DNA from: Rhizophagus irregularis
Taxonomy: Eukaryota > Glomeromycota > Glomeromycetes > Glomerales > Glomeraceae
Direction: 5' to 3'
Assembly (NCBI RefSeq): GCF_026210795.1
Contig: NC_089445.1
Span: 2,542,001-2,606,000 of the forward strand
DNA length: 64,000 nucleotides
Each line of letters starts with the position of its first letter. Positions within the stretch are counted from its first letter, which is position 1. The position numbers were made by a program, and so were the translations under genes. A model generated the notes under the pieces. It worked only from the letters and a program-made list of their open reading frames with translations, searched no databases and had not been told where the DNA came from. Of the stretch, positions 4,642 to 43,239 are shown piece after piece.

Positions 4642-7600
4642 ATGGATCAGAAACCTGCCAAGGATATTCCTATGACAGACGTGGAGGATACGACAACATT
4701 ATTCGTAACAAATTATCGTATGTTATTATTCAAATAAATTATTTATTGTACTTTTTAATTTATCATTTAACTGACATATTTGTTGAAGTTTGGATTCACT
4801 AGTTTGAACCTCTTTGTAAATAAATAACTTTAAACCATTTAATGCGTGATCTATTAAAATTCATCTTTCCTTTTTAGATGAAATATTATTACTAGTGTTA
4901 ACCGGAATTTTATTTGTATACAACAGACCTTGAAGCTTTGGCAAATAAAATTATGCCTGAACTAGGTTGCGAGATAGAAGATTTTAAATATAACACATGG
5001 CATGTAACAAATTGGCGGAATTTGGAAAAGAGGATAACAGGACCAAAGTTTGAAGTTGGAAGTTGGGAATGGTAATGTAAAAATTTTGAATAAACGATGA
5101 AGTTGTTTGATAAATATTTAATATTTTCTTTCTTTTATTTTTTTTAGGCAAATTTTGTTATTCCCTTTTGGTAATAATAATTTAGATAGTGTTTCTATTT
5201 ATCTTGATTTTTTTGATCCTAAGAGTGCTCCAGACGGTTGGCATTTATGTGTTCAATTTGCTTTAGTCTTGTGGAATCCTGAAGATCCATCACATTATGT
5301 TGCTCATCGTACGTGTAAAAATTATGTCTTGGAATTGTATTGTAACAATGATATTATATTTAATTTGAATTTGAATTTGAACTTTAGACTCTCATCATCG
5401 ATTCAATGCCGAAGAATCAGACTGGGGATTTACACGGTTTTATGGTCTAGATAAATTGTTTACCCCTTATGAAAACCGAACACGACCATTAATCGAGAAT
5501 GATTCAACCAATATCACGGCATTAGTACGAGTATTGAAGGACCCTACAGGCGTTTTATGGCATGAGTACATTATCCCATTTATTATCATTTAAAGCTTTG
5601 ATTTACAAATAATGACAATATTTAATATTTCTGGCTTTGTTTTAACCTTTCATATAGTTATAATTCAAATATGAGGAAGGGTTATGTTGGTTTAAATAAC
5701 CAAGGCGCTACAAGTTATATAAATTCATTACTCCAGTCACTTTATTTTACGACTTATTTCCGTAAGGTTTGTTTTTTGTTTATTATGCATTGTTTATTAA
5801 GATCAAAAGTTTAATACTTATTTATAAATCATAGGCGATCTATCAAATCCCCACGGAAAATGATATCCCAAACAAAAGTGTTCCTTTAGCATTACAACGA
5901 GTTTTCTTCAATTTGCAGACATCAGATATTCCAATCGAGACGATAGAATTAACAAAATCTTTTGGTTGGAATTCATTTGATTCTTTTACACATCACGATG
6001 TGCATGAATTTAACAGAATGTTGCAAAATTATCTTGAAGGCAAAATGAAGGTAGTTCATTTAAATTATGAAATTTTTTTTTCTTTCATGTTTATTTTTCA
6101 GTAAGAGTTTTTTATGATTATTTATTAGGGTACAAAAGCTGATGGTGCAATTACTAAACTTTTTTCTGGTAAAATGAAGAGTTATATTAAATGTGTCAAT
6201 CAAGATTATGAATCTTCTTATGTTGAAGATTATTATGGTAATAGTAAAATATTTCTGTAATATTTTTTATATGCATTAAATGCCGTTCAAAAGAATAATT
6301 ATAATTTAAATTTTGGTTAGATATTCAATTGAATGTAAAAGGTTGTAAGACTTTAAGAGATTCTTTCAAGAATTATATTCAAAAGGAAACATTGGAAGAC
6401 GATAATAAATATCAAGCAGAAGGTTATGGGTTGCAAGTAAGTAGAAAGCGAATTTAATTATTTATTTACTTATTTTATTATTCGGCTACTTGTGTTAAAG
6501 GTAGTTTTAACTGATTTAGCTAATTTAATTTACGTAGGTTGCCGAAAAAGGTGTTATATTTGAGAGCTTTCCTCCAGTTTTACATTTGCAACTTAAGAGA
6601 TTCGAATATGATATGCAAAAGAACGCCATGACCAAGGTTACATAATTGATAAATATATGTATTTGATGATAAAAATTCTTTATTGCTTACCAAACTCTTA
6701 TTATATTAGATTAATGATCGTTATGAATTTCCAATTGAGATTGATTTAGAAGAATTTCTATCGGAAAATGCGGATAGATCCAACCCCCATAAATATTTAT
6801 TATATGGGTTTGTTTATGAATTTACGTTATTATTGCATTCTCAACTTATTTTTAAAAATGTTCAAATTATAAATTCTTATTTGTTATATACAGTATAATC
6901 GTTCATAGTGGTGATTTACACGAAGGTCATTATTTTGCTTTACTAAAACCTGAAAAAGACGGCAAATGGTTTATTTCATTTATATATATGTTTGTTTATT
7001 TATTAAGAAAAATTAATGTACGAACTCGTTTAAAATTAAATTTTTTAGGTTTAAATTTGATGATGGTCATGTTACACCTATTATGGATAGTGAAGTCCTT
7101 GATAGTTATGGTGGTGAATTTCCAGATGCTAATTCAATCAGCGCAATTGATCCAACCGATAAACGGTCACGATCTACCAATGCTTATATGTTAATTTATA
7201 TTCGCGAATCGAGTATTAATGAGATATTGTCTCCTGTGATCCCCGAAGATATACCTGATCATTTACGTATGTATATACTAATATATTTAAATTAATTAGG
7301 ATGAAAATGTTTGTTATTTATTTATTACTATCTAAATAGAAAGACGATCAGAAGAGGAAAGGGCCTTTGATTTCATCATCAAGGTATTATTATCATTTTT
7401 TTTTATAAAAGAGAGAAAGGGGAAAGAGGGCTATTCTTACTATTAATCTTATGACAATATTTTATTATATAGATTGTAACCGCCGAAAAATTCAAATATC
7501 ACCAAGGATTTGATATTGCCAATTTTGAATATCCAATTTCTGATATATATACATATAAGACTACAAAAAATAAAACTTATGAAGTTTTTAAAAAAAATAT

Positions 7601-40600: not shown

Positions 40601-43239
40601 TTTTTTTCTAAAGAAAAAATTATCATTTAAATGGTACAACAAACCATTTGCCGTCTTTTTCAGGTTTAAATAAAGCAAAGTAATGACCTTCATGTGAATC
40701 ACCACTATGAACAAGTACACTGTATAATAAATAATTTTTAGAAATATTTTAGAAATAATGACAGTACAGTAATTATTGTATAGTCAAACGAACCCGTGTA
40801 ATAAATATTTATGAGGATTTGTTCTATCTGTATCTTCTGATAGAAACTCCTCTAAGTCGATTTCCATCGGAAACTCGTGACGATCATTAATCTTGTATAA
40901 TAAGAATTCGATAAGAAAGAGATCATTTTATCATCAAACATTTTTAAATATATTTGCCACCTTAACCATTGCGTCCCTTTGTAAATCATATTCGAATCTT
41001 TTAAGTTGTAAATGTAGAACTGGAGGAAAGCTTTCAAAAATAACACCTTTTTTGGCATCCTGCGTAACATAAAAATTAGTTAGTTGCAAGTATCTTTAAC
41101 GCAAATAACGCAAATAACCGAAATAAAAAATTTAACTATTAAACGTCTGCTTTCAACTTACTTGCAACCCATAACCTGTTGCTTGATACTTATTATAGCC
41201 TTTCAATATTTCTTCTTGAATATAATCCTTGAAAGAATCTCTTAAAGTCTTACAACCTTTCACATTCAGTTGAATATCTATCATAATTAAAATATAATAC
41301 TTATTATCTTGAATAACTATTAATTTATGAAAAAGTATTATCATAGAAACACCTTATTATTACCATAAAAGTCTTCAACACGAGAAGACTCATAATCTAC
41401 ATTAACACATTTGATATAACTCTTCATTTTACCAACAAAAAGCTTGGTAATCACACCATCGGCTTTTGTACCCTAATAAAAAAATTAATACGACCATAAA
41501 TTAGCTAATAAACACGAAGAAAAAAAATTCTAATACAGTTTAGAAGAATTACCTTCATTTTGCCTTCGATATTATCTTGCAACACTCTGTTAAATTCTTG
41601 TACATCGTGCTGTACAAAGGATTCTTTTAAATCCCATCCAAAAGATTTCGTCAATTCCGTCGTTCCAACCGGAGTATTTGATGTCTGCAATTGGTAGAAA
41701 ACTCGCTGTAATGCCAAGGAGACACTTTTGATTGGCTCATCATCTTCTGTAGAAATTTGGTAAACAGCCTATAATTTATAAATAAACAGAGGAAATTAAA
41801 TTTAATCTAAATAAAACTACTAATTTACAATATTCTTATTAGTAATTGTACTTACCTTACGGAAATAAGTCGTACAATAAAGTGACTGCAATAACGAATT
41901 CATGTAACCTGTAGCGCCTTGGTTTTTCAATCCCACATATCCCGTCTCTTTCTTTGAACCATAACTATATGAAGAGGTTACAGAAATATTGAAGGCTATA
42001 AGCCCATAACAAAAGAGAATATTTGCGGATCAAGCTTTGAATGATAGTAATAAATTAGGTAATATATTTGATGAAAGTATGCCATAAGACACCTGTAGGA
42101 TCCTTCAATACTCGTACAAAAGCCGTAATATTGGTCGATTCATTCTCAATTAACGCACGCGTTCGGTTTTCACAAGGAGTTAACAATTTACGTAAATCAT
42201 AAAACTGCGTAAAACCCCAGTCCGATTCTTCGGCAGTGAATCGATGATGCGCGTCTAGAATTCAAAAATTCCAAACAAAAGAAAATATAGCACGAAAAAA
42301 AAATAGTATAGTAACATGTATGTAGGTGTTGATTTGCATTAATCTATATAGATGCTTTAAAATTTTAATTCTCATACATACGATGATAAATATATTGTGT
42401 TGGATCTTCAGGATTCCACAAGACTAAAGCGAATTGAACATATGAATGCCAGTCTGCTGGAGACCCCTTAGGATCAACAAAATCAAGATAAATAGAAACG
42501 GTATCTTGATTACTATTGCCAAAGGGAAATAGTAAAATTCGCCTAAAGAAAAAATAAAAATCATTAAATAAGTTTATGATTTTTCGTTTTTGTTGAAAAT
42601 TTATTACAGCACACCATTTCCAATTTCCAGCTTCGAATTCTGGCCCTGTTATCTTCTTTTCCAAATGCCGCCAATTTGTTACATGCCATGTGTTATATTT
42701 AAAGTCTTCGATCTCTTGACCTAATTCGGGCATAATTTTATTTGCCATAGCTTCATCTGTGATATATATAAATAAAATTTTGGTTAACATTAGTAATAAT
42801 ACTTCAGATTAAATCTATATATCCAACATCCAAAAAAGAAATATTGAAGATGAATTTGGATTTTTATAAGGGTATATCACGTAATATTGATTAGGAAAAT
42901 TATTTATTTACTATAAAGAGGTTCAAACTAAATCCAAACTTCAACAAATATGTTAGTTAAATAATAAATCAATACAATAAAAAATCTATTTGAATAATTA
43001 ACATACAATCTGTGACGGGCAATGGTGCTATTTGGTCAAAAACATCCATGTTATTATTGTCGTCCTATGATAGTAAATCAGTAGAGTAACTGTACCTATT
43101 TGTTAATGATTATTTCGTTATATATAGTTATGGTATTTATTATTTTTGTCAAAATGAAAAATTGTCAAAAAATAAAATAAAATAAAATAAAATATTTAAG
43201 CACTTTCCTATCAGGTTTCACTATATTTTAACATACCAT
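37695..43239 (-). CDS. USP7-like pseudo-deubiquitinase, copy C (Cys to Gly)
   Basis: The third complete copy runs from an ATG at 43237-43239, again followed at once by an intron (GTATGT), to a TAA at 37695-37697. The leader exon reads [19 protein letters not shown] and lacks the ~13-residue acidic stretch of copy B. The MATH domain ([20 protein letters not shown]) and USP domain are otherwise complete. The active-site box is [16 protein letters not shown], with Gly (codon 41907-41909) where Cys is expected. This removes any side-chain nucleophile. The oxyanion Asn, the His (HEGHYFALF, codon 40683-40685) and the Asp (FKFDDD, codon 40526-40528) are kept. The C-terminal ubiquitin-like region is open to the LGLDHLDK terminus. 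Splice junctions checked in the catalytic part and around 39540-39650 keep frame. It shares its 5' and 3' flanks with copy B. Probably a non-catalytic binding protein (inference). Confidence 0.85.

Follow-up and report, generated by a model that had tools for sequence, protein, structure and literature searches.

USP7 (HAUSP) and the fungal Ubp15 are deubiquitinases (DUBs) of peptidase family C19 in which the domains MATH, UCH, USP7_ICP0_bdg and USP7_C2 follow one another in this order. DUB folds that lack the residues required for cleavage form a described class of pseudo-DUBs, reported to account for about 13% of DUBs and to act as allosteric activators or scaffolds, and USP39 and USP52, which are named there as USP examples, are being reconsidered as active (PMC10919355). 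The consequences of replacing only the catalytic cysteine are reported for laboratory mutants: yeast Ubp8 with Cys changed to Ser does not cleave and has a mono-ubiquitin affinity like that of the wild type (12.8 versus 13.9 uM), the change to Ala makes mono-ubiquitin binding about 30-fold tighter and the change to Arg abolishes detectable binding (PMC6172466), while ubiquitinated proteins accumulate in cells with USP14 C114A (PMC6839854). C19 peptidases are reported to be abundant in aquatic early-diverging fungi and Mucoromycota, and the word "inactive" is absent from the main text of that report (PMC8778642). Here, we analyse a 64-kb stretch of the Rhizophagus irregularis genome (C17:2542001-2606000, hereafter the window) with three USP7-like genes that have the domain order of USP7 and Ubp15 and that, unlike these, encode Ser or Gly in place of the catalytic Cys. 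We suggest, with a probability of roughly 0.55, that these genes encode pseudo-DUBs, i.e. duplicates of USP7/Ubp15 that have lost the nucleophile and have been kept by selection, perhaps for holding substrates or ubiquitin. The genes and their catalytic-cysteine positions are as follows.

4642-9858, plus strand: copy A, USP7-like gene, Cys to Ser; 24 exons, 23 GT-AG introns, 1083 amino acids plus stop
29467-34788, minus strand: copy B, USP7-like gene, Cys to Ser and catalytic Asp481 to His; 24 exons, 1108 amino acids plus stop
37695-43049, minus strand: copy C, USP7-like gene, Cys to Gly, ancestral exon-4 donor lost; 24 exons, 1080 amino acids plus stop
5713-5715, plus strand: catalytic-cysteine position of copy A, AGT (Ser)
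33657-33655 (33655-33657), minus strand: catalytic-cysteine position of copy B, AGT (Ser)
41909-41907 (41907-41909), minus strand: catalytic-cysteine position of copy C, GGT (Gly)

In all three copies the altered codon is equivalent to human USP7 Cys223. The codons AGT, AGT and GGT confirm the motifs GATSY, GATSY and GATGY that an original prediction made from the sequence of the window had read at this site, and none of the copies has the Cys in the Cys box of an active C19 peptidase. TGT is absent at 5713, 33655 and 41907, and because the public proteins carry the identical Ser and Gly residues, assembly error is ruled out as the source of the Cys loss. A six-frame motif scan of the window detected no USP7-type box with Cys and, therefore, no alternative exon that could supply it; likewise, tblastn with the active protein (E up to 1e-3) gave three match clusters in the window (4914-9852, 29470-34484 and 37698-42763) and no further USP7 fragments. 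The oxyanion Asn and the catalytic His are present in all three copies, as predicted. The third triad residue, Asp481, on which the prediction was silent, is retained in A and C and is His in B; thus, A and C have both the catalytic His and Asp of active C19 peptidases while B has only the His.

Splice-aware alignment of the homologous loci, which had been proposed as a check, gave open 24-exon models without internal stops or frameshifts for A, B and C, in agreement with the predicted long open multi-exon frames, and all three are matched by near-identical public proteins. Copy A is 99.5% identical to P0025, copy B 99.4% to P0011 and 98.4% to P0012, and copy C 100% to P0009. P0011 has 1101 amino acids and uses a GC donor, and P0009 uses a splice earlier than the lost exon-4 donor, giving a different MATH-UCH linker. 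The spliced aligner and the codon model used below are in-house scripts, not PAML or exonerate, and the aligner gives P0009 and P0005 at 100%; a frameshift and GC introns in the initial automatic model of copy C were gone with P0009 as query. Upstream of copy C lies sequence resembling the GACATTTATGTC-rich arrays described at the end of this text.

The description of the locus as a cluster of intact genes that all lack the catalytic Cys is correct inside the window, but the same contig also contains an active copy. In the genome searched (146.7 Mb, 32 contigs), a search for the UCH family gave at least seven USP7-type loci, counts being lower bounds. One of these, L009, is an intact GATCY copy that lies 76 kb before the left edge of the window, at a distance of 80.6 kb from copy A, with an intact active site and 99.9% identity to the public P0001. 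The others comprise copies A to C and three further copies that, like them, lack the Cys (dead copies). Copy D (L014, minus strand), with its 3' end 417 bp beyond the right edge of the window, has Gly for Cys and Thr for the oxyanion Asn, and copies E (L015, 746.8-751.9 kb) and F (L020, 685.9-690.9 kb) on contig C16 both have Gly for Cys. The frame is open without internal stop in all seven loci. The earlier reader thus saw part of the family, as the active copy and dead copies D, E and F lie outside the window. The loci of C and D are 100% identical to proteins named Rhizophagus irregularis DAOM 181602=DAOM 197198, and from the sizes of the 90%-identity clusters (17 for copy A, 16 for F, 12 for E and 10 for B) the copies may recur across isolates. 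Two further candidates, L010 and L018, were dropped and taken as other USPs because they aligned poorly with USP7 and retained the Cys. A dead set that, as here, is tandem-expanded on the contig of its active parent is not mentioned in the consulted passages of PMC10919355.

MATH, UCH, USP7_ICP0_bdg and USP7_C2 exceed the Pfam cut-offs, in this order, in P0025, P0011 and P0009, consistent with the claim that the MATH domain and the C-terminal region are retained. Closeness to USP7 over other USPs was judged on P0025 (copy A) only, which matches USP7 among PDB sequences with an E value of 2.5e-174 and USP47, the best other USP, with 7.4e-50; the trees described below held no other USPs. Human USP7 is also the best solved match to the copy-A protein over nearly its full length. 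An AlphaFold model of P0025 based on a 41-row alignment has a mean pLDDT of 80.9 and a pTM of 0.49 and matches USP7 crystal structures domain by domain, the catalytic domain superposing on 1nbf with a TM score of 0.91 by target length and a root-mean-square deviation (rmsd) of 2.4. The DWGF motif of the MATH domain is intact in copies A to F, and the acidic patch of UBL2 is largely intact. In USP7, both features bind substrates.

The suggestion that selection has maintained these genes is borne out by codon models. For the UCH domain of the seven copies, a branch model put the ratio of non-synonymous to synonymous substitution rates (omega) at 0.288 for the dead branches, compared with 0.108 for the active tip and 0.099 for the stem that separates the two Rhizophagus groups, and fixing the dead branches at omega = 1 was 56.7 log units worse (2 x delta lnL = 113). 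An omega near 1, which would have spoken for neutrality, was rejected not only overall but also in each of four lineage tests, i.e. for the lineages of copy A (omega 0.246; 2 x delta lnL = 26.4, p 3e-7) and copy B (0.193; 38.8, p 5e-10), for the C and D tips (0.407; 6.7, p 0.0099) and for the E and F tips (0.366; 24.9, p 6e-7). Three omega classes fitted UCH better than one (p 0.004), and splitting the active tip from the dead branches gave no significant gain (p 0.10 in UCH; p 0.64 for the whole gene), the whole-gene omega of the active tip (0.431) being no lower than that of the dead branches (0.380). Pairwise dN/dS in UCH is 0.15-0.20 between L009 and each dead copy; among the dead copies it is 0.30 for A-E and A-F, 0.37 for E-F, 0.35 for C-D and 0.18-0.24 for the other 11 pairs. 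The dead branches have an omega of 0.276 for MATH and 0.445 for the C-terminal region, and a value of 1 gives a worse fit for either. The dead UCH domain is therefore constrained like MATH and more strongly than the C-terminal region, and less strongly than on the stem. An omega of 12 for MATH on the active tip was disregarded, resting on a branch of length 0.01. Neither mark of a pseudogene, a broken frame or a neutral dN/dS, was found, as the seven loci have no internal stop and omega = 1 is rejected; the dead copies are instead intact genes that lack catalytic residues and are under purifying selection, as expected of pseudo-DUBs.

Dead relatives are also present in other species. Two homologue searches (the best 120 of 5,303 and the best 120 of 4,211 passing proteins) yielded 132 distinct proteins. 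Among these listed homologues, 103 have Cys at position 223 and the other 29 are all glomeromycete: 25 have a substitution (Ser, Gly, Asp or Asn, and Arg in none of the 25) and belong to R. irregularis, R. clarus, R. diaphanus, Gigaspora margarita, G. rosea and Cetraspora pellucida, the last a member of Gigasporaceae, and four are gapped. Of the gapped proteins, P0022, P0029 and P0034 have models that lack this stretch, P0022 (G. margarita) retaining the rest of the active site, and P0004 (R. clarus) has a shortened box. The R. clarus relatives of E and F are likewise without the Cys, and in the eight Cys-less proteins of Gigaspora and Cetraspora the catalytic His is replaced in seven and gapped in one. 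The two Cys-less R. clarus proteins P0003 and P0004 (1351 and 1331 amino acids) appear by eye to have a second ICP0-binding region. A GATCY copy is listed for R. irregularis, R. diaphanus, Glomus cerebriforme, Diversispora epigaea, Geosiphon, Funneliformis, Acaulospora, Ambispora and Paraglomus; none is among the 132 listed homologues for R. clarus, Gigaspora or Cetraspora, an absence that clustering or incomplete models may explain. Because several Cys-less proteins are publicly named hydrolase or cysteine proteinase, counting the active DUBs of these fungi by name may overestimate them. Among the titles and abstract openings listed in searches of open-licence PMC papers, none describes these dead copies, in line with the supposition that they had not been described in these fungi.

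In the full-length tree, from which P0007, P0015, P0018 and P0131 were left out, the Cys and non-Cys states require three changes. B, C and D adjoin the active P0001 and P0002 (the joining forks, at 80/91 and 78/91, are not firm), copy A groups with E, F and the R. clarus copies (93/93), and the Gigasporaceae copies stand apart. In trees from which further rows were omitted, columns outside UCH rejected a single origin of all dead copies (p-AU 7.4e-7) and a single dead clade in Rhizophagus (p-AU 3.6e-5), while UCH columns alone keep both (p-AU 0.22 and 0.318, respectively), and a UCH tree with another row set already placed the dead Rhizophagus rows on one side of a branch (support 21/90). Runs in which two copies agree at successive polymorphic sites reach 58 for the active copy and D, 58 for C and D and 36 for the active copy and C, lengths reached in none of 2000 permutations; weaker runs were found for the active copy and B (10, p 0.021) and for B and D (8, p 0.022), and that of B and C (7) was not significant. 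Because the long runs exceed chance, they show that the paralogues exchange tracts by gene conversion. Rhizophagus may have undergone either one loss followed by conversion of the flanks or several losses. Separate losses in Rhizophagus and Gigasporaceae are the best interpretation, although one origin is compatible with the UCH columns by themselves, and T235I and F427Y, which are common to some copies from both groups, could represent convergence or old common ancestry. Altogether, the data suggest that mycorrhizal fungi turned the deubiquitinase USP7 into a non-cutting protein more than once.

In the pseudo-DUB reading, the dead copies would retain the USP7 fold, would still engage USP7 substrates via the MATH domain and the C-terminal region and would hold the substrate, or perhaps the ubiquitin moiety, without cleavage; they may thereby compete with the active L009, shield substrates from it or serve as a scaffold. 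The original prediction had likewise offered ubiquitin readers, decoys or shields as possible roles, which remain hypothetical. They resemble Ubp8 C146A/S (PMC6172466) and USP14 C114A (PMC6839854) in the replacement of the catalytic Cys but, unlike these laboratory mutants with an otherwise wild-type site, they are natural and have additional changes near the active site. Several of these changes, together with other results, weigh against the reading. A position-by-position check covered 17 dead rows (16 from the database and copy A) out of 26 Cys-less ones (the 25 substituted rows and P0004). In 13 of the 17, Glu (as in A, B and C) or Lys replaces Gly462, which lies two positions ahead of the catalytic His, and none of the ten active rows listed alongside has this replacement; the change requires three steps on the full-length tree, might hinder the normal fit of the ubiquitin tail and, being recurrent, speaks against a simple ubiquitin trap. 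Gly275 is altered in 14 of the 17. At 215 UCH-region positions, Cys223 included, where 95% or more of the 103 active rows agree, ten active rows (nine glomeromycetes and Basidiobolus) have 0-13 differences; A has 31, B 14, C 12, D 11 and E 30, and copy F on contig C16 is altered at 53. Moreover, constraint on UCH is weaker on the dead branches than on the stem (0.288 versus 0.099), conversion with the active copy could hold down the divergence of C and D, whose tips reject neutrality weakly, and the domain placement in the P0025 model is unlike that in full-length USP7 (9a9w; TM score 0.36, rmsd 20.9). The dead set beside its living parent on one contig, with Cys-less relatives in other mycorrhizal genera, provides a natural experiment on a non-cleaving DUB, and one active and six dead copies in a single genome make a direct comparison of ubiquitin and substrate binding possible.

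The main rival is that the proteins are non-catalytic scaffolds in which function resides in the MATH and C-terminal parts, with the UCH fold retained for stability or protein contacts rather than for ubiquitin binding. We consider this rather unlikely; it ranks first among the alternatives because the change at Gly462, seen in most of the dead rows checked and in none of the ten active ones, and the loss of the catalytic His in Gigasporaceae suggest that there is no normal ubiquitin pocket, and the intact DWGF motif in A to F fits it equally. However, the dead UCH domain is not the freest part, as its omega (0.288) is below that of the C-terminal region (0.445), and B, C and D are altered at only 11-14 of the 215 conserved positions.

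Slow decay, in which redundant duplicates are turning into pseudogenes and look intact by virtue of youth or conversion by the active copy, appears improbable. The long agreement runs linking the active copy, C and D, the loss of the ancestral splice donor in copy C and the higher omega of UCH than on the stem are as this explanation would have it, but neutrality is rejected in A, B and E/F at synonymous distances of 0.47-0.58 among A, E and F, all six dead R. irregularis loci have full frames, and the R. clarus relatives of E and F share the absence of the Cys. Residual or altered catalysis, by Ser copies acting as weak hydrolases or by a substitute nucleophile such as the Cys that replaces Ser457 beside His456 in copy B, appears equally improbable: Asn, His and Asp are all present in A and C, and USP53 and USP54, annotated as inactive (PMC12037411), and likewise USP52 (PMC5876348) are reported to be active, but the Gly of C, D, E and F has no side chain for a nucleophile role, the Asp is absent from B and the oxyanion Asn from D, and Ubp8 with Cys changed to Ser is reported not to cleave (PMC6172466).

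A parallel to the dead USP7 copies is found in USP14/Ubp6-like genes of the same genome, where loci on contigs C1 and C2 read GNTGYMN and a relative on C4 (L021) reads GNTCYMN.

C2:1506000-1515900: L016, USP14/Ubp6-like, Cys to Gly, catalytic His to Asn
C1:4175500-4185400: L017, USP14/Ubp6-like, Cys to Gly, catalytic His to Asn

L016 and L017 are 96.6% identical over 2.1 kb, and their exons correspond to those of L021, which retains both the Cys and the His that is replaced by Asn in the other two. Among the USP14/Ubp6 homologues listed (the best 120 of 4,131), 111 have Cys, four Gly (P0138, P0139, P0142 and P0154, from R. irregularis, R. diaphanus and Glomus cerebriforme), one Phe and four a gap, the Phe being in a poorly aligned stretch of a partial Racocetra model. 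Asn replaces the catalytic His in two of the four Gly proteins, and precomputed domain lists give the ubiquitin-like domain PF00240 for none of the four. It is conceivable, if somewhat doubtful, that arbuscular mycorrhizal fungi repeatedly convert duplicated USPs into dead substrate-binding regulators, with USP7 affected in Rhizophagus and Gigasporaceae, and USP14/Ubp6, whose listed dead copies are also devoid of the N-terminal ubiquitin-like domain, in Rhizophagus and Glomus; the parallel change of Gly462 to Glu or Lys would then reflect a shared new function of the dead site and not mere decay.

The remainder of the window contains several other elements. The palindrome-like word GACATTTATGTC or its complement is abundant in tandem arrays at 43608-44535, 48353-48887 and 57564-57992. 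Two long minus-strand open reading frames (ORFs) at 51294-56851, with sequence resembling Gag-Pol and integrase, look by eye like a Ty3/Gypsy-type retrotransposon, whose repeats may include the matching AT-rich tandem arrays found at 49.3 and 57.4 kb. A 700-amino-acid frame on the minus strand at 18253-20355 is hydrophobic in an N-terminal stretch and matched nothing in Pfam or NCBIfam. Two plus-strand ORFs at 26335-28428, the second with a protein-kinase domain (Pfam), may be one gene, and a 528-amino-acid open frame on the minus strand at 14613-16199 contains Sel1/TPR repeats.

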